Origin: Rhizophagus irregularis
Lineage: Eukaryota; Glomeromycota; Glomeromycetes; Glomerales; Glomeraceae
DNA length: 64,000 nt
Direction: 5' to 3'
Assembly: GCF_026210795.1 (NCBI RefSeq)
Contig: NC_089459.1
Coordinates: forward strand, 1,736,001 to 1,800,000
A program made the translations under genes and the position numbers. Numbering within the stretch: position 1 is the stretch's first letter; each line of letters starts with the position of its first letter. The notes below the pieces were generated by a model. That model ran no database searches. It saw only the letters and a list, made by a program, of their open reading frames with translations, and had not been told where the DNA came from. Of the stretch, positions 1 to 64,000 are shown piece by piece.

Positions 1-2640
1 AAAATTTTGGTAAATTATTCCAAAATATATATTTTTTTTTTCTTAGTTTATTACTTTGACAAAACATCTATTAACAATTTTATTTTTATTCTTTTTAGAC
101 AGTTCTTTTCCTTTGGGTATTTGGACATGTAGGAAATTCGGCAAGTAAATTTTTAATTTTCTGTAAATAATTTTTTTAAAAAATGTCTAACATTTCTTTT
201 TTATAGGTGACAAGTTTTTCAGATATTAGGATTAAAGCTCCGAACAGTTCGGGCTAAACCGGGGAACCGATCCGAAACCAGCTCAAAATTCGGTTCGGTT
301 CGGTTCGGGTATTAGAACCGAAAAACCGGCGGTTCAGTTCGGTTTAATCCGATTTTTTATAAAAATGTGAAAAATCGAATAGCTGGCCATCTAGTGATCG
401 TACAAAGTCGAGCCATATATCATTGGATTCCTCTCGACGAGACGCGTCGAATGGTGGTAAGATCATGTCTCTAGCATCGATAGATCACACGTCAACCCAC
501 GCTAAATGATTTATAAATAATTTGAATTAGCAAGATATCTATCGGTGCTAGAGACATGATCTTAGCACCATTCGACGCGTCTCAGTGAGACGAATCCAAT
601 TAATATAAATTCGTTCGTGTACGACCACTGGATGGCGAATAATATCAAGTTTCGCATTTTTTTAAAATTTTCGAGCGTTAAAAATTAAAAATTCCGATAC
701 ATGAATTTATTCGTCGTCCAATGGTCATACAAATATGTATTAGGACTCATTGGATTCGTCTCGATGAGACGAGTCGAATGGTGGTAAGATCACGTCTCTA
801 GCATCGATAGATAGCATGCTAATGCCATTTTTTTATAAATTATTTAGCGTGAATTAACTTACGATCTATTAATGCTAGAGACATGATCTCACCACCATTC
901 GACTCGTCTCATCGAGACGAATCCAATGAGTCCTAATACATATTTGTACGACCATTGGACGACGAATAAATTCATGTATCGGAATTTTTAATTTTTAACG
1001 CTCGAAAATTTTAAAAAAATGCGAAACTTGATATTATTCGCCATCTAGTAGTCGTACACAAACGAATTTATATTCATTGGATTCGTCTCACTGAGACGCG
1101 TCGAATGACGCTAAGATCATATCTCTAGCACCGATAGATATCTTGCTAATTCAAATTATTTATAAATCATTTAGCGTGGGTTGACGTGTGATCTATCGAT
1201 GCTAGAGACATGATCTTACCACCATTCGACGCGTCTCGTCGAGACGAATCCAATGATATATGGCTCGACTTTATATGACCACTAGATGGCCGGCTATTCG
1301 ATTTTTCGCATTTTTATAAAAATCGGATTAAACCGAACCGAACCACCAGTTTTTCAGTTCGGTTCTTACGGATTTCGGCTCTAATCCGAACCGTCTATAA
1401 TCCGGACCAAACCGACCCGTTCGGAGCTTTAATTAGAATGCATAGAATCATGGAATTTTAGTAGGTATCTCAACAAGCTTTCTTGAATTTTAATTTTAAT
1501 GAAACTTAACTACCGTTTCATTTTTTATTCTTTTTTTAGACAGCCAATTTTTTAAATCTTTGGATGTGTGGATTTTAGTAGGAAGAGCTAGAGAAGAATT
1601 TTAATCTATTTTAGCAAAATGTTTACTAGCGTTTTGTTTTGTTTTCTTTTTTAAAGCTAAAAACAAATTTTAGATAGGTTTTTAGAATCATTTCGAAAAT
1701 TTCTTAAAAAAACTTTTTTAATTTATTTTAATTTTTTTGTAGAAATCTAATCCCAAAATAGATACTAAAATCTAGGTGAGCTTTTGAATTACCTTTGAAA
1801 ACTATTAAAAAAAGTTTTTTAAATATATTAATATTAACTGGATTTTTTTTCTTTTTATAGATATCTGACTTCAAGAATTTAAGTAAGTTTTCATTCAAAA
1901 ATTTTCTTTTGAAAAGATGAAACGTTATTGATATTTCTCCTTTTTCTTTTTTGTAGAACCTTAACCAGCTTTTTGAATAAATTTTGAAGGAATATAAACT
2001 TTGAAATTTTATTTTGTTAAGAAACGTTAACTATATAAATGTTTTGATTTATTCTTTTTTTTGGATTCTTGGATATGTAGATTTTTTATAGGGAATTCCA
2101 AAGAGTTGTTTTTTATTTTTTTTTGAAATGTTTTACTAACTCTTTTTTTTTTAAGCTAACGGGTTTTTGGATGTATAAAATTTTAGTAAGTTATTCCAAA
2201 ATATACATTTCTGGATACGTAAAATTTTGGTAAGTGAATCCAAAATTTTTTTGAATTTGTTTTTTTAGCAAAGCATTTTACTAACATTTTAATTTTTCTT
2301 TATTTTTTTAGGGTTAGGACCAATTTTGAAGCATTGAATCTAATTTTGTAGATGTTCCTGTTCTGACAGATTTCTAGGTGAATTTTTGAAAAAACTTTGA
2401 AAATAATTTAAAGAAAACAAAGGAAAAGTTTTTTTTTTTTAGACGTATACTAACTTTTTTTAATTTCATAAAAACTTCAAAAAAACTGTATACTTTGTAA
2501 GTTTTCATTTTGAAAATATTACATTTTTAAAAAAAGGTATTGTACTAACTTTTTTCTATTTTATAGGAATCCAGTTCCAATTTTGAAGTACTGGCAAGTT
2601 TTCGCTTCAAAATATTAACTTTTTTTATTTTTAGTTCCTA
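1..2640 (+). repeat. Diverged tandem array of exon-like and intron-like blocks (array I)
   Basis: Repeated blocks of about 100 bp, each with a GTAAGT/GTAAAT-like donor, a CTAAC/CTAAT-like branch motif, a T-rich tract and a TAG acceptor. A clear example is the 62-nt intron-like block 145-206, where AAATG (181-185) and CATTT (191-195) flank TCTAA. Exon-like pieces share a 'GGATRTGTA..TTTTAGTAGG' theme, for example near 120, 1562, 2065, 2167 and 2213. Less regular than the array at 9.2-10.5 kb. Interrupted by a foldback element at 234-1430 and continues off the left edge. No coding potential is recognised. Splicing is inferred from motifs only. Confidence 0.6.
234..1430. mobile_element. Foldback element, AAAGCTCCG family, 1197 bp
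   Basis: Nearly the whole element is an inverted repeat: it begins AAAGCTCCGAACAG and ends CGTTCGGAGCTTT, and the arms stay complementary deep into the interior (for example 'GATTCGTCTC..GAGACGAATCC' modules). Flanks TATTAGGATT (224-233) and AATTAGAATG (1431-1440) match at 7 of 10 positions and look like an eroded 9-10 bp target duplication. No ORF. Such target duplications and long terminal repeats suit Mutator-like elements, but family assignment is inference. Inserted into array I. Confidence 0.8.
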
Positions 2641-3609
2641 TTATATTGCTATGTAATTAATTATAGTATTATGTAAAGATTACATGATAATACAATTAAT
2701 AAAAAAACTATTACAAATACATTGTAAAGCTATTATGTAAATAATTACTGAATTAATAAATATTTATTTCAAATCCATTTCAAATGTATTACAAAACAAT
2801 TTCAACATTGTTGAGACGAAATTATAAACCAGATAACATGGTTGTAATGCATAACAAAATGTTCTTGTAAAGCTTTTGTAAGGCATTCAGAAATACTAAA
2901 AATATATATCAAAAAAAATATCATTTTTAGTAAAGAATCTGTATTTGCTAAAGTTTTAAAGATAAAAAATGAATTACTTCATAAAGTTAAATCACATTAT
3001 TTCAATAACCAGTAAACAGAATTTAATTATTTATGATTCAATGAATTCATATTATCAAGATGCATCTAATTACAGTGTTTTTATATCTCTAAATTTGATG
3101 GATCAGATGTTATTCTCAACAGTAAAATGCAAATAATTTATTATTCACTTTTAAAAATTTGACATATACAAATTTCAAAACATTTTCTTCTCTATTGAAC
3201 TTATTAGAAAAATGAAATATGATTCATTAGATTTGTCTTGTTAAGATATATGGTATCTATTATTTTCATGTCTCTAGAATTGATAAATCAAAAGTTATTT
3301 ACATTTTACTATTTTTAGACATTTAGCAATAACTTCTAATCTATTGAACTTACAGATTTGAAAATACTGCGGTTAGATGCATCTCAATTAGACGAATTCA
3401 ATAAATCATAAATCATAAATCATTAAATTCTGATCACTGGACGCTAAAATAACGTGATTTAATAGTCATTTTTTAGAGGTGTCTGTATACTTTTAACAGG
3501 TGAGTGTATATGCTAAAAATGATAAAAAGTTAAAAAAAAAAAGAAAATAAGTCCTGTGATTACCAAACATTGAAGATAGGGCCTTTCTGGCTAAAATGAT
3601 CCATTACTA
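2641..3609. other. AT-rich intergenic sequence
   Basis: No gene seen. Around 3060-3420 are decayed motifs (GATGCATCTAATTA, ATGTCTCTAGAATTGATAAATCA) resembling the inside of the foldback element at 234-1430, so this may be an old relic of the same family. Confidence 0.35.
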
Positions 3610-7499: not shown

Positions 7500-8131
7500 A
7501 ATCATGCATCAATTACAGAATATGCTTATTGAAACATAAACAAAACTCCTGGATGCTAAAGTTGTGCTATCTATTCTAAAAGAAAAAAACCGCATGATAA
7601 CTTTTGCTGATATTATAAAATGAAAGCCTGATGATGATAATTAGCTAAATTCATTTATTTCTATTAGACATAAATGACTAATGAAAAAATTCTACTTTAA
7701 AAAATCCTATTAGTAAATGTAATAAGTTTAGGAAATCTGATAAAAAGCATAAATTTTAACAACATACACTTAAAAAGATGATTTCAATTACAATAATTGG
7801 ATATGAGCCAATATTTAAGGATAATATTTACAAAATAGTTGTTTATGATATCCCTTTCAAATGGACTCAAATTGAAATACTTAATTACTTTAAGGCTTAG
7901 GGTAATAATGTTTTGACTATGAAGTTGAAGAGGCAAAAGAAATACTTTGCTTTTTTTTAAATTCAGATGTTTATTGAATAAAATAGTATAAAATCACATG
8001 AATATCATATGAATTAACACATTTTTCAAATGATTTTTTTTTAGGGTTTTTTATAGGGTACTATAACCACTGGTCGAAATCAAAACTTTTGACTGTTAAA
8101 AGCTTTTGGCATAATTTTTGCTGATTGGTCT

Positions 8132-8817
8132 AAGGTTGCCTGCTGAAACTAAAAAGGAAATTCCGAAAGGTTTCGGCCAATCAAATCAAATGCCGAAAAT
8201 GCCGAAATTAGGCCGAAACTCGGTCTTAATTTTGGCCAAAATTAAAATTCGGCCGAAATTATGACATTGTGTCACGTGAAGTTACACAGATTTCCAAAAA
8301 AGGAAAATTTGTTTCCCAGTAAAATCGGAGAAATGTGTCGCACAAATATTACACAAAATTCCATAAATTGAAATTTACATGTCGATCATTATTCTGGCCA
8401 GAATTATAGTATTAATGTTGGCCAATAATTTCGGCCAAATTTTGGCTTTTCGGTAAAAGTTTCGGCATTGTATAATTTCGGCAAATTTACTTTTAATTGC
8501 CTAAACTAAGGTTGCTTGCCGAAACCTAGGGGTTTAGGCAAAATGGCGTTTCGCCGAAAAGTGAAATTCTGCCGAAACTATATTAAAGTTATATTAAAAA
8601 ACTGGCGAAACTTTGGAGAAAGGCGAAACTGCCGAAACTTATTATAAATGCCAAAACTGCCGAAACTCTGCCGAAACTATAATAAATCTATAGTAAAATT
8701 TTGACGAAACTAATCGTAGGATTTTGAAGAGGTTTAGACAAGCAACCTTAGCCTAAACTTTCGGTTTTAAAAAAGTTTCAGCCTTGGCCTAAACTATTTG
8801 ATTTCGGCAAGTAACCT
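8132..8817. mobile_element. AAGGTTGC-family element, itself interrupted
   Basis: Begins AAGGTTGCCTGC and ends GGCAAGTAACCTT, flanked by GATTGGTC on both sides (inside 8122-8131 and 8818-8827; 8 of 10 flanking positions identical). Its interior repeats GGCCGAAATT/AATTTCGGCC. A second family member sits at 8508-8749, so this element is the older of the two. Confidence 0.75.
8508..8749. mobile_element. AAGGTTGC-family MITE nested in another copy
   Basis: AAGGTTGCTTGCCG ... AAGCAACCTT, 242 bp, flanked by GCCTAAACT on both sides (9 of 10 positions identical over 8498-8507 and 8750-8759). The interior is a chain of GCCGAAACT motifs and their complements. Confidence 0.85.
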
Positions 8818-8929
8818 TAGATTGGTCATGTGATTCGTCACATTTTTTGACCAATAGCAAAAATCGGTAAAATCAATGAAAAAAAATCGACCAATAACTT
8901 TTTGGTCGATATTTTGTAATTATGTATCA

Positions 8930-9130
8930 CATGCATTACGCGATACTACTATATATTAATTTTATTTAAACTTTTTTTTCTCACTCCCCCCTTTCCACTC
9001 ACTTTACTTTTCCACACACTCCTTCGTTACCCTTTCGTCTTCCACTTTCTACTCACTCTTTCGTCTCCCTTTTCCTCTCACTTTTTCGTCTTTTTCTTTC
9101 CCTTTTCTTTCGTCCATTCCTCTTCCTTCT
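8930..9130 (+). promoter_or_regulatory. Possible promoter and pyrimidine-rich leader of array II
   Basis: ACTATATATTAA near 8949 could act as a TATA box. It is followed by a strongly C/T-biased stretch (about 8970-9125, TTTCCACTCACTTTAC-like) and then the first donor at 9171. The order TATA, pyrimidine tract, multi-intron body looks like a fungal transcription start region. No transcript evidence is available. Confidence 0.3.
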
Positions 9131-9170
9131 TTTTAGGTGTGACGCGCTTTCTTTTAGATACGGTATTTTG

Positions 9171-10467
9171 GTAAGTTTTTAATTTTTTTTATTTCTCTTA
9201 TTTTTGCCTTAATAAACTAATTTCAAATTTTTTTTTTTAGTTATTCGGCTTTTAGACACGTGAGTACTTCGGTAGGAGAGTTAGATTTTTTTAAAAATTT
9301 TATTTAACGAAACGTTTACTAACGTTTTCATTCTTTTTTTTTGTAGGTTCAAGACGCCCTTGAAGTATAATAGATATTAGGATTTAGGGCATGAATTGGT
9401 CGATGGTAAGTTTCGAAGTTGGGTTAATTTCAAAACTTTAAAAGAAATGATTTACTAATCGTTTCTTTCTTCTTTTTGTAGACTTTCACTTTGGGCTGAT
9501 AGATCGGGTAAGTTTCGAAATATTTCAAAACTTTTTGAGATTTTTTTTTATAAAAGAATTGGTTTGCTAACCATTTTTTATTTTTTTTGTAGGTTCTTCT
9601 TCGTACTATTATTGAGAAATAGACGTGTAAGTTTCAATGTGTGTTTCGAAACTTTATTTTTTATTATTATTAAAGAAACGGACTAACCGTTTTCTTTATT
9701 TTTTTTTTTGTAGGTTTCCATTAACGAATTAGGGTAAAGGGGGTAAGTTTCAAATATATTTTGAAACTTTGTGATTTTTTTTTATCGAAGTAATATTAAA
9801 CTAATTGTTTCTTCTTTTTTTTATAGATTTCCCTCTTCAGACTTTATTGAATAGACGGGTAAGTTTCAAATTTTTCGAAACTTCAAGTTTTTATTAAAGA
9901 AATGAATTAACTGTTTCTTTTTTTTATTTGTACTTTGTAGGTTTCCATTAACGAATTGGGGTAAGTTTCGATATTTCGAAACTTTATTTTTTTTTATCGA
10001 AGAAACATTAAACTAATTGTTTCTTCTTTTTTTTGTAGATTTTCCCCTTTGGACTTTTTATTGGATGGGTAAGTTTTAAATTTTTCGAAACTTCATTTTT
10101 TATTATTATTAAAGAAACGAACTAACCGTTTCTTTTTTTTTTGTAGGTTTCCATTATCGATTTGAGGGTAAGTTTTGAATATATTTCAAAACTTTGTGAT
10201 TTTTTTTTATCGAAGAAATATTAAACTAATTGTTTCTTCTTTTTTTTTATAGATTTCCTCTTCGGACTTTATTGGATGGGCAGGTAAGTTTCGAATTTTT
10301 CAAAACTTCAGTTTTTATTATTATTAAAGAAACGAACTTACCGTTTCTTTGCTTTTTTTTGTAGGTTTCCCCTTTGGATTTTATCAGATCGGGTAAATTT
10401 CTTTTGAAACTTCAATTTTTTTATTTAAAAAATAGGTTACTAACCGTTTCCTCCTTTTTTTTTGTAG
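9171..10467 (+). repeat. Tandem microexon/intron-like array II (14 intron-like blocks)
   Basis: Intron-like blocks: 9171-9240, 9260-9346, 9406-9481, 9508-9592, 9627-9713, 9743-9826, 9859-9940, 9961-10038, 10069-10146, 10168-10252, 10284-10364 and 10393-10467, all 70-87 nt, with GTAAGT-like donors, CTAAC/CTAAT motifs, T tracts and TAG acceptors (twelve are listed with exact ends; short related pieces flank them). Exon-like blocks are 19-59 nt and alternate between a GTTTCCATTAACGAATT type and an ATTTCCCTCTTCGGACTTT type, so the higher-order period is about 220 bp. Stops occur and no protein is recognised. A noncoding spliced RNA or a decayed gene built by duplication of an exon-intron unit are both possible. 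Confidence 0.7.
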
Positions 10468-11039
10468 GTTTTCTACAGATTTTTATCAGGTTAGGTGAGG
10501 ATGATGGATGGATGGTGAATGGTGAATGGTGTATATAGATGATAGATAGCTATATATTAATTTAATATGTAATTTTTAATAAAATGAATTAATAAAATTT
10601 AATTAATAAATTATTATAAAATTAAAATCAGTAATCAGTTAAATGTACAAAAATCGTTAATAAATTATTAGGTTTATTAACAATCGTCAATTTGATTTTA
10701 CTGATTTGTTGCCAATTTTACTGATCGATTTGTTAATAAGTGGTAGGCGTTATGGTGCAAATCGTTTATAAAATTAGTTGCCGATTTTTTTGGTACTGAT
10801 CGGCTAAGGTCAGACCAAATTTCGTCCAACATTCAGCAATTTAAAATTTTGCCAAAATGGACTATTCAGACCAGTGAACTACTATAGCTAGATTAAGATA
10901 AAATATTCTACTATCCTAAATTTATTTGTTATAAGGAGGAGTTCTATTGATATTTGAAATAAATAACATAAAGTTCATGAAGTTTTTTATTGTTATTATT
11001 AATACTTTAGTACATGATATTTACGTTATTTACTAGGAA

Positions 11040-11530
11040 ACAGAAATCGTTGTAAGTCCAGAGCAAAAGATTTTGTACAAAAATCCAAATATCTTTAAAA
11101 ATTCAATTTGTACAAAAAATCTGGCGTCTCTAAAAAAAATAAAAAATGAAATGTTAGAAACGTTTCTTTAAAGTTAAACAAATAAGAAAAGCCCTTCTTC
11201 ATAATTTACCTTTAAAAGTTCAGCATATACAAAAAACCTGTGTTCCTAGATAAAAAAAATAAAAATGAAACGTTAAAAATGTTTCTTTAAAGCAAAACAA
11301 ATAAAAAACAACTTACCAGTCAAGAAATCCAGAAACCCTAGAATAAAAGTAAGAAATGAAACGTTAAAAACGTTTCTTTAAAGTTAAACAAATAAAAAAC
11401 CCTCCACTTCCTAATTTACCTTTAAAGTCCAGTATGTACAAGAAATCCAGAAACCCTAGAAAAAGAATAAGAAATAAATCAAAAACATTCCTTTGAAGTC
11501 AATTAAAAAAAATATACTCACTAAACGAAA
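11040..11530 (-). repeat. Short exon/intron-like array on the minus strand
   Basis: On the minus strand, units read acceptor CTAG, exon-like GGTTTCTGGATTTCTTG, donor GTAAAT or GTAAGT, then AAAGAAACGTTTTTAACG and a T tract. About four units are seen. The stem GAAACG / CGTTTC around TTTTAAC matches that of array II. Overall sequence is otherwise diverged from the plus-strand arrays. Confidence 0.5.
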
Positions 11531-12617
11531 CCAAACAAAAAAAGAGATTATCAGGTAATCATGTTTATCATAAACTTATTATGATTATTACACTTGTTTA
11601 TTTTTGAAGTAGCATAAAATTTCAATGACACAATCTGTGCAGATTAATCAAAAATGACGCGTGCAGACAAACAGACATCGCCACGTGATCCAATATATTA
11701 TTAAGGTTCATAAACATATATAGTCCTTCGCTTCGCTCTGGACAATTAATCTAAACTTAACAGTTTTGAGTTAATGGAATGAAAGAATTTGGACTGCTCC
11801 TCTTGAAAATTTGTCAGTACAATAGTTTTTAGCAGCTTGAAATTTGAAGTAACATAAAAAATGTGAAAAATTCTAATTGGTCCTAGTTGTTATTCCTAAA
11901 TCAATAACTATTAGTATTTTATATTCTACTGAAAATCCTGCTTAATCATTGTTTTCTTCTACAGATTGTAAAACTTTCAAGATTATTTAAGATAGAAGGC
12001 ATTCAAAATTGATTATGTATTACCAATCATGGGCAATCTTAAATAATGTCACCAATATAAAGTTCAATTTAAAAGTGTTTGAATGAAATACTTTGCACCC
12101 TTTTTAAATCATCAACTATAAATAGGTCATCAAAAAGAATGGACTATATCACAAGTTGAATCAAAATTCAAAACTATCAGTAATACTAAAAGATTTGAGT
12201 AAACAAATTCAGGAAAGAGAATCCTTTAAATCAAATAATTTGTTAAAGTGATGGGAAAAGATCTGAATAATATTTCTAAACTGATATTATTAGCAAAAAT
12301 TAGAAATTTACTTAATAAAATTGTTAACTAACAGGATAATTGGACAATTCTGATAAGTTATAGGTAGGGTGAATAGAATACTATCAAAGTATTTTCTCAT
12401 TACTCAAATATTTTACTAATTTCCCTTTTTTTTTATTTTATTATTTTACTTTAGCTTTAATTTTGTAACTCTTTTTTTTTCTTTTTTTGTTGTAGGTTTT
12501 ATATTGCAATAACAGTAAGTTTTTAGATATATAGACTAAAAAAAGAGAATTTTTTCTAAGAAAGAACTCCTTTAAGAAGCACTTATTTTCCTAGTTCAAA
12601 ATTTCAACTGACAGTAC
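11531..12617. other. AT-rich spacer with one isolated array-like unit
   Basis: No gene seen. At about 12420-12520 a T-rich tract with TAACT and an acceptor GTTGTAG is followed by an exon-like GTTTTATATTGCAATAACA and a donor GTAAGT, resembling one stranded unit of the nearby arrays. Confidence 0.3.
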
Positions 12618-61964: not shown

Positions 61965-62830
61965 CACTGGTCGAAATTAAAAAAATTGGACATATGGAAA
62001 ATCGGCCAAAAATCAGACCAAAATTGACTAACATTATAAATCGGCATATCTGATTGATGCCAATCAGACAATTTGATAAAAATTCAGCAAAAAATCATTA
62101 TATTTGATTGACGGCTGATTGATGCTAGTTGAAATCAAAAAAAAAATGGACAAATGGCAAATCAACCTAAAATTTGCCCAATATTCAAATATGCACTTCT
62201 GATTTATGGAAAATTGACAATTCAATAAATATTCAATAAAAATTCAATAAAAATTCAGCAAAAAATCATTATATTTGATTGACGGCTGATTGATGCTGGT
62301 TGAAATTAAAAAAAAAAATGGACAAAATAGCAAATCAACCTAAAATTTGCCCAATATTCAAATATGCACTTCCGATTTATGGAAAATTGACAATTCAATA
62401 AATATTCAATAAAAATTCAATAAAAATTCAGCAAAAAATCATTATATTTGATTGACGGCTGATTGATGCTGGTTGAAATTAAAAAAAAAATGGACAAAAT
62501 AGCAAATCAACCTAAATTTGCCCAATATTCAAATATGTACTTCAGATTTATGGAAAATTGACAATTCAATAAATATTCAATAAAAATTCAATAAAAATTC
62601 AGCAAAAAATCATTATATTTGATTGACGGCTGATTGATATCAAAAAAAAAATCTGACAAATTTGTAAATCAACCTAAAATTTACAATATTCAAATATGTA
62701 CTTCAGATTTATGGAAAATTAACAATTCAATAAAAATTCAATAAAAATTTAGCAAAAAATTATCATATTTGATTAACAGCTTAAAATTTGCCTAATATTG
62801 TCTGATTTATGGCACTTTTATATCAAATTG
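61965..62830. repeat. Tandem 172-bp repeat derived from a CACTGGTC element end
   Basis: Begins CACTGGTCGAAATTAAAAA. GATTGACGGCTGATTGATGC recurs at about 62106, 62277, 62450 and 62621 (spacing 171-173 bp), with a decayed fifth copy near 62770. Each unit contains GCTGGTTGAAATTAAAAAAA, a near copy of the element end. Noncoding. Confidence 0.75.
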
Positions 62831-64000
62831 CACTGGTCAAAATCAAAACTTTTGGGCATGGAAAAATTGTCTCAATTTCAGAAGTTATTCGAATAAACGA
62901 TTTTTCAAAATCAACTTATGATGTACTAAGCCGCAGCCACAGTAAAATTAATCTGGCAATTAGTTGATCTATTACCGAATTTAGACTTTATTTAAACTAA
63001 AGTTTCGAAACTTTATCTTCATCTAACTTCATTCCTAAACAAAACGGTTTTAAACGTTTTGGGATTTTTTTTTAATTTTTTATCGGAAATAATGTTCCAA
63101 TTTTTAACATTTTTATTTTTTATGAAACGTTTTTTAACTTTTCATTTAATATTTTCAATCGGAACATTAGTTAACGTTCTGATTTTATTAATTTTTTTTT
63201 GCAAAAACTATTACTTTAAAAAACGTTTTCTAACATTTTTTTTTTATACTTTTAAATAGGAAATCGGCTCCTACTTGGATACCGAATTCCAAAGGTAAGT
63301 TTCGAAGAATTTCTTTGAAACTTTATAAAAAAAAACGTTTTCTAACATTTTTTTTATACTTTTATATAGGAAATCGTCTCCTACTTGGATACCGAATTCC
63401 AAAGGTAAGTTTTGAAGAATTTCTTTGAAACTTTATAAAAAAAAACGTTTTCTAACATTTTTTTATACTTTTATATAGGAAATCAGCTCCTACTTGGATA
63501 TCGATTTCCAAAGGTAAGTTTCGAAACAAAAGTTTCGAACTTTAAAAAACGTTTTTTAATATTACTAAAAACGTTTTTTTTTACTTTTGTATAGGAAATC
63601 GGCTCCAACGTGGACGCCGATATTCCAGATAAGTTTCGCATTTTCGAAACTTCTTTTGAAAAAAACGTTTAACGTTTTTTTTTTAATATTATTGTAGGAA
63701 TACCGTAAAGTTTCGATTTTTCGAAACTTTTTGACAAAAATTAATAAAAAACGTTTAATTTAACGTTTTTTATTATATTTTATTATTTTTTTTTGCAGGG
63801 AAATCGGCTCCAATATGGATACCAGAATCCCGCAGGTAAAGTTTCGATTTTTTGAAACTTTTTGAAAAAAATTAATAAAAAACGTTTAATATAACGTTTT
63901 TTATTATATTTTATTATTTTTTTTTGCAGGGAAATCGGCTCCAATATGGATACCGGAATCCCACATGCAAAGTTTCGATTTTTCGAAACTTTTTGAAAAA
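62831..64000 (+). mobile_element. CACTGGTC-ended element (left part), carrying array III
   Basis: Starts CACTGGTCAAAATCAAAACT, almost the same as the left end of the 8068-10876 element. The right end lies beyond the window. About 430 bp of AT-rich leader precede the exon/intron-like array. Confidence 0.55.
63260..64000 (+). repeat. Tandem microexon/intron-like array III
   Basis: Exon-like blocks of 35 nt with near-identical sequence (start GAAATCGGCTCC, end TTCCAAAG) at 63260-63294, 63370-63404 and 63479-63513, then variants at 63595-63628, 63799-63835 and 63930 onward. Intron-like blocks 63295-63369, 63405-63478, 63514-63594 and 63836-63929 start GTAAGTTTCGAA or GTAAAGTTTCGA, contain AAACGTTTTCTAACATTT-like motifs, and end TATAG or TGCAG. 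The donor after 63628 is ATAAGT and the last visible one is GCAAAG, both weakened. Continues off the right edge. Confidence 0.7.

Follow-up and report, generated by a model that had tools for sequence, protein, structure and literature searches.

The intron-like blocks at positions 9171-10467 of the 64,000-nt stretch of Rhizophagus irregularis DNA analysed here (the window) make up the inside of a DNA transposon that is of the CACTA type, non-autonomous and tnp2-dependent. The carrier is a transposon of a known kind; its interior of stacked introns was found described nowhere in the literature searched, as far as the available parts of those sources go. Our preferred reading, which we hold to be probable rather than secure, is that the element carries a splice-competent, non-coding array that is kept because splicing benefits the element. 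Between its terminal repeats, the window element appears to be laid out as a promoter-like region, a pyrimidine-rich leader, short non-coding exons, near-consensus introns and a poly(A) signal:

8068-8080, plus strand: 5' terminal inverted repeat CACTGGTCGAAAT, with AAC just outside (copy comparison)
8131-8819, no strand assigned: insertion carried by the window copy, separating the subterminal region from the promoter-like one (the copy alignment jumps from 8130 to 8820)
8950-8959, plus strand: TATA-like box TATATATTAA (sequence reading)
8971-9137, plus strand: pyrimidine-rich leader, likely the transcription start region (sequence reading)
9171-9240, plus strand: intron 1 (scanner, as for all introns below)
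9260-9346, plus strand: intron 2
9406-9481, plus strand: intron 3
9508-9592, plus strand: intron 4
9627-9713, plus strand: intron 5
9743-9826, plus strand: intron 6
9859-9940, plus strand: intron 7, branch motif TTAAC
9961-10038, plus strand: intron 8, with the branch-point palindrome GAAGAAACA..TGTTTCTTC (also sequence reading)
10069-10146, plus strand: intron 9, with the branch-point hairpin AAAGAAACG..CGTTTCTTT (also sequence reading)
10168-10252, plus strand: intron 10
10284-10364, plus strand: intron 11, branch motif CTTAC
10393-10467, plus strand: intron 12
10578-10583, plus strand: AATAAA, candidate poly(A) signal, with a second copy at 10591-10596 (sequence reading)
10865-10876, minus strand: 3' terminal inverted repeat with one mismatch to CACTGGTCGRAA, followed by AAC (copy comparison)

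An earlier note on this DNA had described at least twelve blocks, each with a donor, a CTAAC or CTAAT motif, a T tract and a TAG acceptor. A motif-chaining scanner recovered, at just the places the note had given, 12 consecutive intron-like blocks of 70-87 nt on the plus strand, with TAG as the acceptor in all 12; the branch motif of the description holds except in introns 7 and 11. The spacers of 19-59 nt given in the note were borne out by the 11 inner exons, all within that range. GT donor, branch motif, pyrimidine tract and AG acceptor, ordered and spaced as in U2-type introns, thus occur 12 times, as compared to a mean of 0.24 and a maximum of 2 introns in 100 Markov-1 simulations; its motif weights were chosen manually with the sequence already known, and the scanner is therefore tuned to introns of this type. 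An earlier, cruder scanner had called 11 introns against a null mean of 0.20 and a maximum of 2 (200 simulations).

The same design, noted before at 1-2640, 11040-11530 (minus strand) and 63260-64000, was recovered by the scanner at all three places in weaker form than at 9171-10467:

10-2566, plus strand: second array, six introns (10-98, 145-206, 1461-1539, 1776-1860, 2230-2311 and 2497-2566)
11130-11419, minus strand: third array, three introns (11130-11209, 11246-11316 and 11338-11419)
63295-63594, plus strand: fourth array, three introns called, running beyond the window end

The respective nulls had means of 0.34 (maximum 3; 1-2700, plus strand), 0.14 (maximum 2; 10950-11600, minus strand) and 0.05 (maximum 1; 63100-64000, plus strand). 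Under a stricter rule of at least four clustered introns, only 9171-10467 was called in the window. The second array is split by a foldback-like insertion of ~1.2 kb with nested inverted repeats (about 230-1430), and a comparable insertion, made of GGCATTTTT/AAAATGCC palindromes, lies at about 690-1750 of another locus, L016. Upstream of the fourth array, a CACTGGTCGAAA end was found at 61965-61976. Between the arrays, 21551-42369 holds ordinary genes, with matches to FAR1, mitochondrial carrier, rhomboid, ribosomal L6e, PCI, lumazine synthase and metallo-beta-lactamase-fold proteins (10 ORFs scanned, three without a match).

The transposon context, which the earlier note had only guessed, is established by the inverted ends, the comparison of copies and the ends held in common with tnp2 elements. 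The window element ends in CACTGGTCGAAA and TTCAGACCAGTG and is flanked on both sides by AAC. These ends were found by copy comparison; the imperfect 12-nt repeat was missed by the automatic inverted-end search. Homology among the copies covers 8068-8130 and, after a gap over the 689-nt insertion, 8820-10878. Terminal inverted repeats starting with CACTR were found in the window (8068 and 10876), in L014 and L015, and in family A, and the end motif CACTGGTCGRAAT has 257 matches in the genome, as compared to four for the reversed control. Exact 3-bp target duplications flank the window element (AAC), L014 (TTC) and L015 (ATA). Inspection by eye showed such duplications at both family-A copies as well, and at four of the seven window-family copies with both ends readable (the window, L002, L004 and L008), L001, L007 and L009 lacking an exact one.

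Three elements of 8.3, 8.4 and 9.6 kb (L011-L013), bounded by CACTGGTCGRAAT, contain ORFs that match PF02992 (Transposase_21, tnp2); the 3-bp duplication is present at L011 and absent at L012 and L013. Both 25-nt ends of L014 and L015 (4.6 and 5.0 kb) are identical to those of L012/L013, and these two elements carry intron arrays of their own, divergent in sequence; L014 also has subterminal repeats. With the tnp2 elements, the window element has 18 nt in common at its 5' end (CACTGGTCGAAATCAAAA) and fewer at its 3' end. No stop-to-stop ORF of at least 100 aa was found in 8068-10876, no ORF of at least 120 aa in L014/L015, and no array of at least four introns inside L011-L013. On the opposite strand, L011 has a 278-aa ORF with a tandem lysine/serine/glutamate-rich repeat and no Pfam match at E 0.01. 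The two copies of family A are 98.4% identical, and their homology begins and ends at the CACTG ends; this family was therefore probably mobile recently. Families B and D bear a different inverted end, CATCAGCAAGTTT (by eye), and the arrays are therefore not limited to one transposon type; genome-wide, the array transposons have at least two kinds of ends.

The 8131-8819 insertion is absent from all seven copies aligned across it (L001-L004 and L007-L009). It is flanked on both sides by the 8-nt repeat GATTGGTC (by eye), and is probably a small non-autonomous element with an 8-bp target duplication. It starts with TAAGGTTGCC and finishes with GGCAAGTAACCTTA, which are near-inverted ends. As for the promoter-like region, TATA-like boxes occur upstream of 4 of 36 arrays (null 0.6) and pyrimidine runs of at least 20 in 14 of the 36 upstream regions (null 2.4). 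A universal promoter motif was rejected, as TATTAAAAG was present in five of these regions and the TATA-like box in the four just given. AAUAAA is the main poly(A) signal of R. irregularis, used at 56.7% of sites (PMC10234402, in part).

The arrays are abundant. In the genome used for the counts (146.7 Mb, 32 contigs), a stacked-junction pattern (acceptor, 18-48 nt, donor) gave 942 matches, as compared to 5 for the reversed control, and a single-intron pattern gave 620, as compared to 11. All chromosome-1 matches to the single-intron pattern outside the known copy L006 were fetched. Arrays of at least four introns were present at 13 of the resulting 16 loci, on the one chromosome sampled, and absent at L020, L032 and L034; the CACTGG end motif lay within the fetched stretch at four (L020, L021, L027 and L029). 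The junction matches cluster (33 on C1 and 17 on C2), which extrapolates to ~506 loci. The junction pattern recovers 95 of the 235 exons of the fetched arrays, and the derived total of more than 2,000 array exons is rough, because the fetched loci were partly selected by similar patterns. Directly downstream of the double array at L016 (4889-7225, minus strand), ORFs match a MULE transposase (PF10551) and, weakly, a zinc knuckle.

The blocks are related by sequence, and the proposal that they had grown by duplication of an exon+intron unit agrees with our comparisons. In the window array, exon similarity correlates with the similarity of the downstream and upstream introns (r=0.65 and 0.72, respectively, p=0.002 each). 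The upstream correlation was found in all 10 arrays of at least eight introns (r=0.37-0.72, p<=0.038), and the downstream correlation in seven of them (p<0.05). Furthermore, L005 and L006 contain three and two extra units of ~107-114 nt, respectively. Repeats of at least 3 nt at the intron edges were found in only 7 and 5 of 272 cases; a match of 2 nt is frequent there, as GT, with which the intron begins, is also a frequent start of the next exon (171 of 272). Given the co-duplication of exons and introns and the rarity of edge repeats, duplication of units is the main way in which the arrays grow, rather than the insertion of one intron after another. The stacking of introners, with mobile introns inserted successively into a non-coding element, could draw on the frequent GT start of the exons and on the inverted-repeat symmetry of fungal introner-like elements (PMC8469720, in part). 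However, such stacking is very improbable, as adjacent exons and introns were duplicated together and repeats at the edges are rare. Nor are the blocks introners in the strict sense, as had been anticipated: they are stacked at 13 of the 16 chromosome-1 loci, among which none, L020, L032 and L034 included, was established as a single intron dispersed in an unrelated gene, and neither similar introns between unrelated exons nor target duplications at the edges were seen, with co-duplication in 10 of 10 arrays.

The exons of the window element do not encode a protein. Splicing in silico between assumed ends at 8975 and 10600 gives a product of 658 nt with no stop-free frame longer than 78 aa, the longest lying in the 5' leader; the spliced product is non-coding. 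Among seven window-family copies, exons change more than introns (0.114 and 0.071, respectively), with 235 exon changes against 160 expected after adjustment for base and CpG content (z=6.3); with 13 copies, the same adjusted excess reaches z=9.5. Multiples of three are not favoured among the inner exon lengths (49, 58 and 66 of 173). In 19 of 24 arrays of at least five introns, the spliced exons are no more open than shuffles. The other five (the first array of L016, L017, L022, L029 minus and L031 minus) have longer frames than shuffled exons (p<=0.04), and the non-coding status is therefore not proven for every array. In translations read by eye (L029 minus, L022 and L031 minus), no frame is open through the whole array, with a 122-aa frame crossing most of L029 minus.

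These five arrays would suit a captured and decayed multi-intron host protein gene (Pack-type), which would leave small exons with canonical introns, the exons being non-functional and the introns passively duplicated relics. We regard this as unlikely, although less so than the other alternatives considered here. The excess of exon change in the window family and the exon lengths argue against it, and the architecture is common to several mutually dissimilar exon families. Relic introns should moreover drift from the consensus, and the array hairpins described below are unlike those of 17 host introns.

By comparison, the splice signals seem to have been preserved in the aligned copies, modestly better than the remainder of the intron. 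Among 138 non-redundant array introns, the donor is GTAAGT in 101 and the acceptor TAG in 132, motifs for which the finder selects. In host TCP1-gene introns, the corresponding numbers are 1 and 8 of 17, a comparison with one gene family whose models were made by frame and may in part be wrong. The earlier note had asked whether splice motifs are more conserved than the rest of the unit among copies; run in part, this test did not refute the idea, and the effect was modest. After base and CpG adjustment, the donor, branch and acceptor motifs taken together changed 54 times in 7 copies, where 72 changes were expected, and 128 times in 13 copies (expected 166), and the counts for the T tract are 31 (expected 48) and 85 (expected 108), respectively; each single signal class stays within a z of 2.5. 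A stronger though indirect sign of maintenance is that mutually dissimilar families keep the order and spacing of the signals. Among copies, intronic CpG sites have a rate of change 2-3 times that of the remaining C/G positions, which hints at methylation at times and hence that the elements are not fully hidden from silencing. The observed/expected CpG ratio is 1.86 in the arrays, 1.02 in the window and 0.84 at the TCP1 loci, though CpG sites change fastest between copies.

In addition to these signals, palindromic hairpins lie at the donor and the branch point, a feature that is new here and is not enriched in the 17 TCP1 introns. Of the 138 array introns, 62% have a stem of at least 6 bp across the branch point and 64% one across the donor, as compared to 11% of shuffles in each case; for the TCP1 introns, the values are 18% (shuffles 20%) and 6% (shuffles 14%), respectively. 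When longer stems with few mismatches were counted, a hairpin was present in 128 of 220 distinct branch regions, as compared to 3 of 272 shuffled ones, and in 66 of 264 donor regions (a raw count with no shuffled counterpart). In some families, the start of the intron is base-paired to the end of the exon, which places the donor in a loop; 20 different arm pairs of this kind reach at least 7 bp, and such stems of at least 8 bp occur in 13%, against 0.1%. Together with 25 nt of exon, the introns form more stable folds than shuffled sequences do (-20.1 and -13.3 kcal/mol, respectively, p=5e-21). Mean exposure is unchanged for the donor (0.36 vs 0.35) and the branch A (0.45 vs 0.46), and the branch pentamer (0.58 vs 0.49, p=6e-4) and the acceptor (0.82 vs 0.77, p=2e-3) are slightly more open. 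Thus, a role of the hairpins as a device exposing the donor or branch A is unsupported on average and depends on the family, with a more open donor in L014, L015 and L029 minus, and a less open one in L029 plus and L031. In L047 (family B, C2:2371500-2377500), ~1.1 kb of AATCGGAACGTTGGCTAACGTTCCGATT-type palindromes, spaced by ~60 nt and without donors, lies between the first donor and the array and could be one giant hairpin-filled intron; shorter runs of this type precede the 63295 array and the L022 array.

The strong over-representation of palindromes is also what would be expected of a satellite acting at the DNA level, in which the palindrome and T tract are primary, whether as a binding site for a transposon-encoded protein or as a hairpin prone to slippage, and the splice motifs are carried along with them. 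The donor-free palindrome runs of family B and the CpG ratio of the arrays relative to the window (1.86 against 1.02) fit such a satellite. So does the weakness of the G.U excess: if a structure acts in RNA, G.U pairs are expected to exceed A.C mismatches, and imperfect stems gave 22 against 15 (p=0.16) and 8 against 4 (p=0.19). However, the ordered donor, branch motif, T tract and TAG with their tight lengths lie far beyond chance, the splice motifs and T tract change somewhat less than expected, and the palindromes are located precisely at donor and branch point; the satellite is therefore unlikely, to nearly the same degree as the captured gene. The stable folding of the introns could, on the other hand, mean that the excised introns are themselves the product, as in an intron-hosted array of small RNAs, either of the snoRNA host-gene style, which tandem non-coding exon+intron units with structured introns resemble, or made of hairpin small RNAs. 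This we consider quite improbable, as no Rfam family was matched at the gathering threshold in the three loci scanned (the window, L014 and L016), and the stems, at about 8-12 bp, are shorter than expected of Dicer substrates.

Returning to the preferred reading of a non-autonomous element with a splice-competent array, we propose that RNA polymerase II would transcribe the element from the TATA/pyrimidine-rich region (TATA-like box at 8950), that the 12 introns would be removed one by one to leave a non-coding RNA of roughly 0.6 kb, and that polyadenylation would occur near 10578. The array units are probably spliced in vivo. Movement would rely on a tnp2 transposase supplied in trans, and the array would gain or lose exon+intron units by duplication and spread as the transposon moves. 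The splice signals and hairpins would persist even between strongly diverged sequences because the element gains from a transcript that is spliced efficiently, which would either resemble a host gene to RNA surveillance or keep the locus transcribed and open to the transposase. Escape from silencing or enhanced expression is suggested tentatively as this gain; since stalled splicing is known to feed RNA silencing in Cryptococcus, we favour an advantage for a transcript that is handled as a regular one.

Most work on introns treats them either as passengers of genes or as mobile elements inserted singly. In this fungus, stacked introns that interrupt no protein make up a large part of many transposon copies, which suggests that certain transposons may exploit the splicing machinery and not a gene. 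Taken to its full extent, this would be a class of genomic parasite that lives by being spliced, with non-coding intron arrays spread over a number of transposon families within a single fungus (some 500 loci and perhaps more than 2,000 introns), splice-competence selected on the element, hairpins holding the donor and branch point, and spliceosome engagement protecting from RNA-based silencing or driving transcription; we put this forward as a speculative possibility. If the arrays are spliced, they would offer a natural experiment on splicing as a self mark that protects a transcript from RNA silencing, in a fungus with 40 AGO-like gene copies (PMC11075540, in part), and a reservoir of exon+intron units able to enter genes, with a bearing on the origin of introns. 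Since each array resembles a many-exon gene, the arrays could also mislead gene annotation.

Tandem non-coding exon+intron units are known from snoRNA host genes such as SNHG14/SNORD116; the arrays described here share this organization, but are mobile and occupy hundreds of loci. No description of stacked intron arrays was found among the matches listed in the largely open-access papers searched on introners, CACTA transposons, and R. irregularis or Glomeromycotina introns and noncoding/small RNA, or in the available parts of PMC8647823, PMC11075540, PMC10234402, PMC4457414, PMC8469720 and PMC9860276. The SP7-like effector genes of R. irregularis likewise combine repeats and introns in one gene, and code for secreted proteins with repeats, the first of which is preceded by a conserved intron (PMC11333574, in part); an effector gene of this type was rejected for the array, as the spliced window RNA, with its longest frame of 78 aa, encodes no protein. 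Introners and fungal introner-like elements are, like the array introns, multi-copy, sequence-related spliceosomal introns, and introners have been linked to non-autonomous transposable elements (PMC9860276, in part). However, introners are single introns dispersed in genes, whereas the introns of the arrays are stacked and multiplied as exon+intron units, with non-coding exons, within a larger transposable element. Also close are the non-autonomous CACTA/EnSpm elements (CMC; Plavaka-like), with which the array elements share the CACTG.. inverted ends, the 3-bp duplications in most copies checked and the ends in common with tnp2 (PF02992) elements. They differ from these in that their interior is neither an internal deletion nor a recognisable captured gene, but a stack of intron units.
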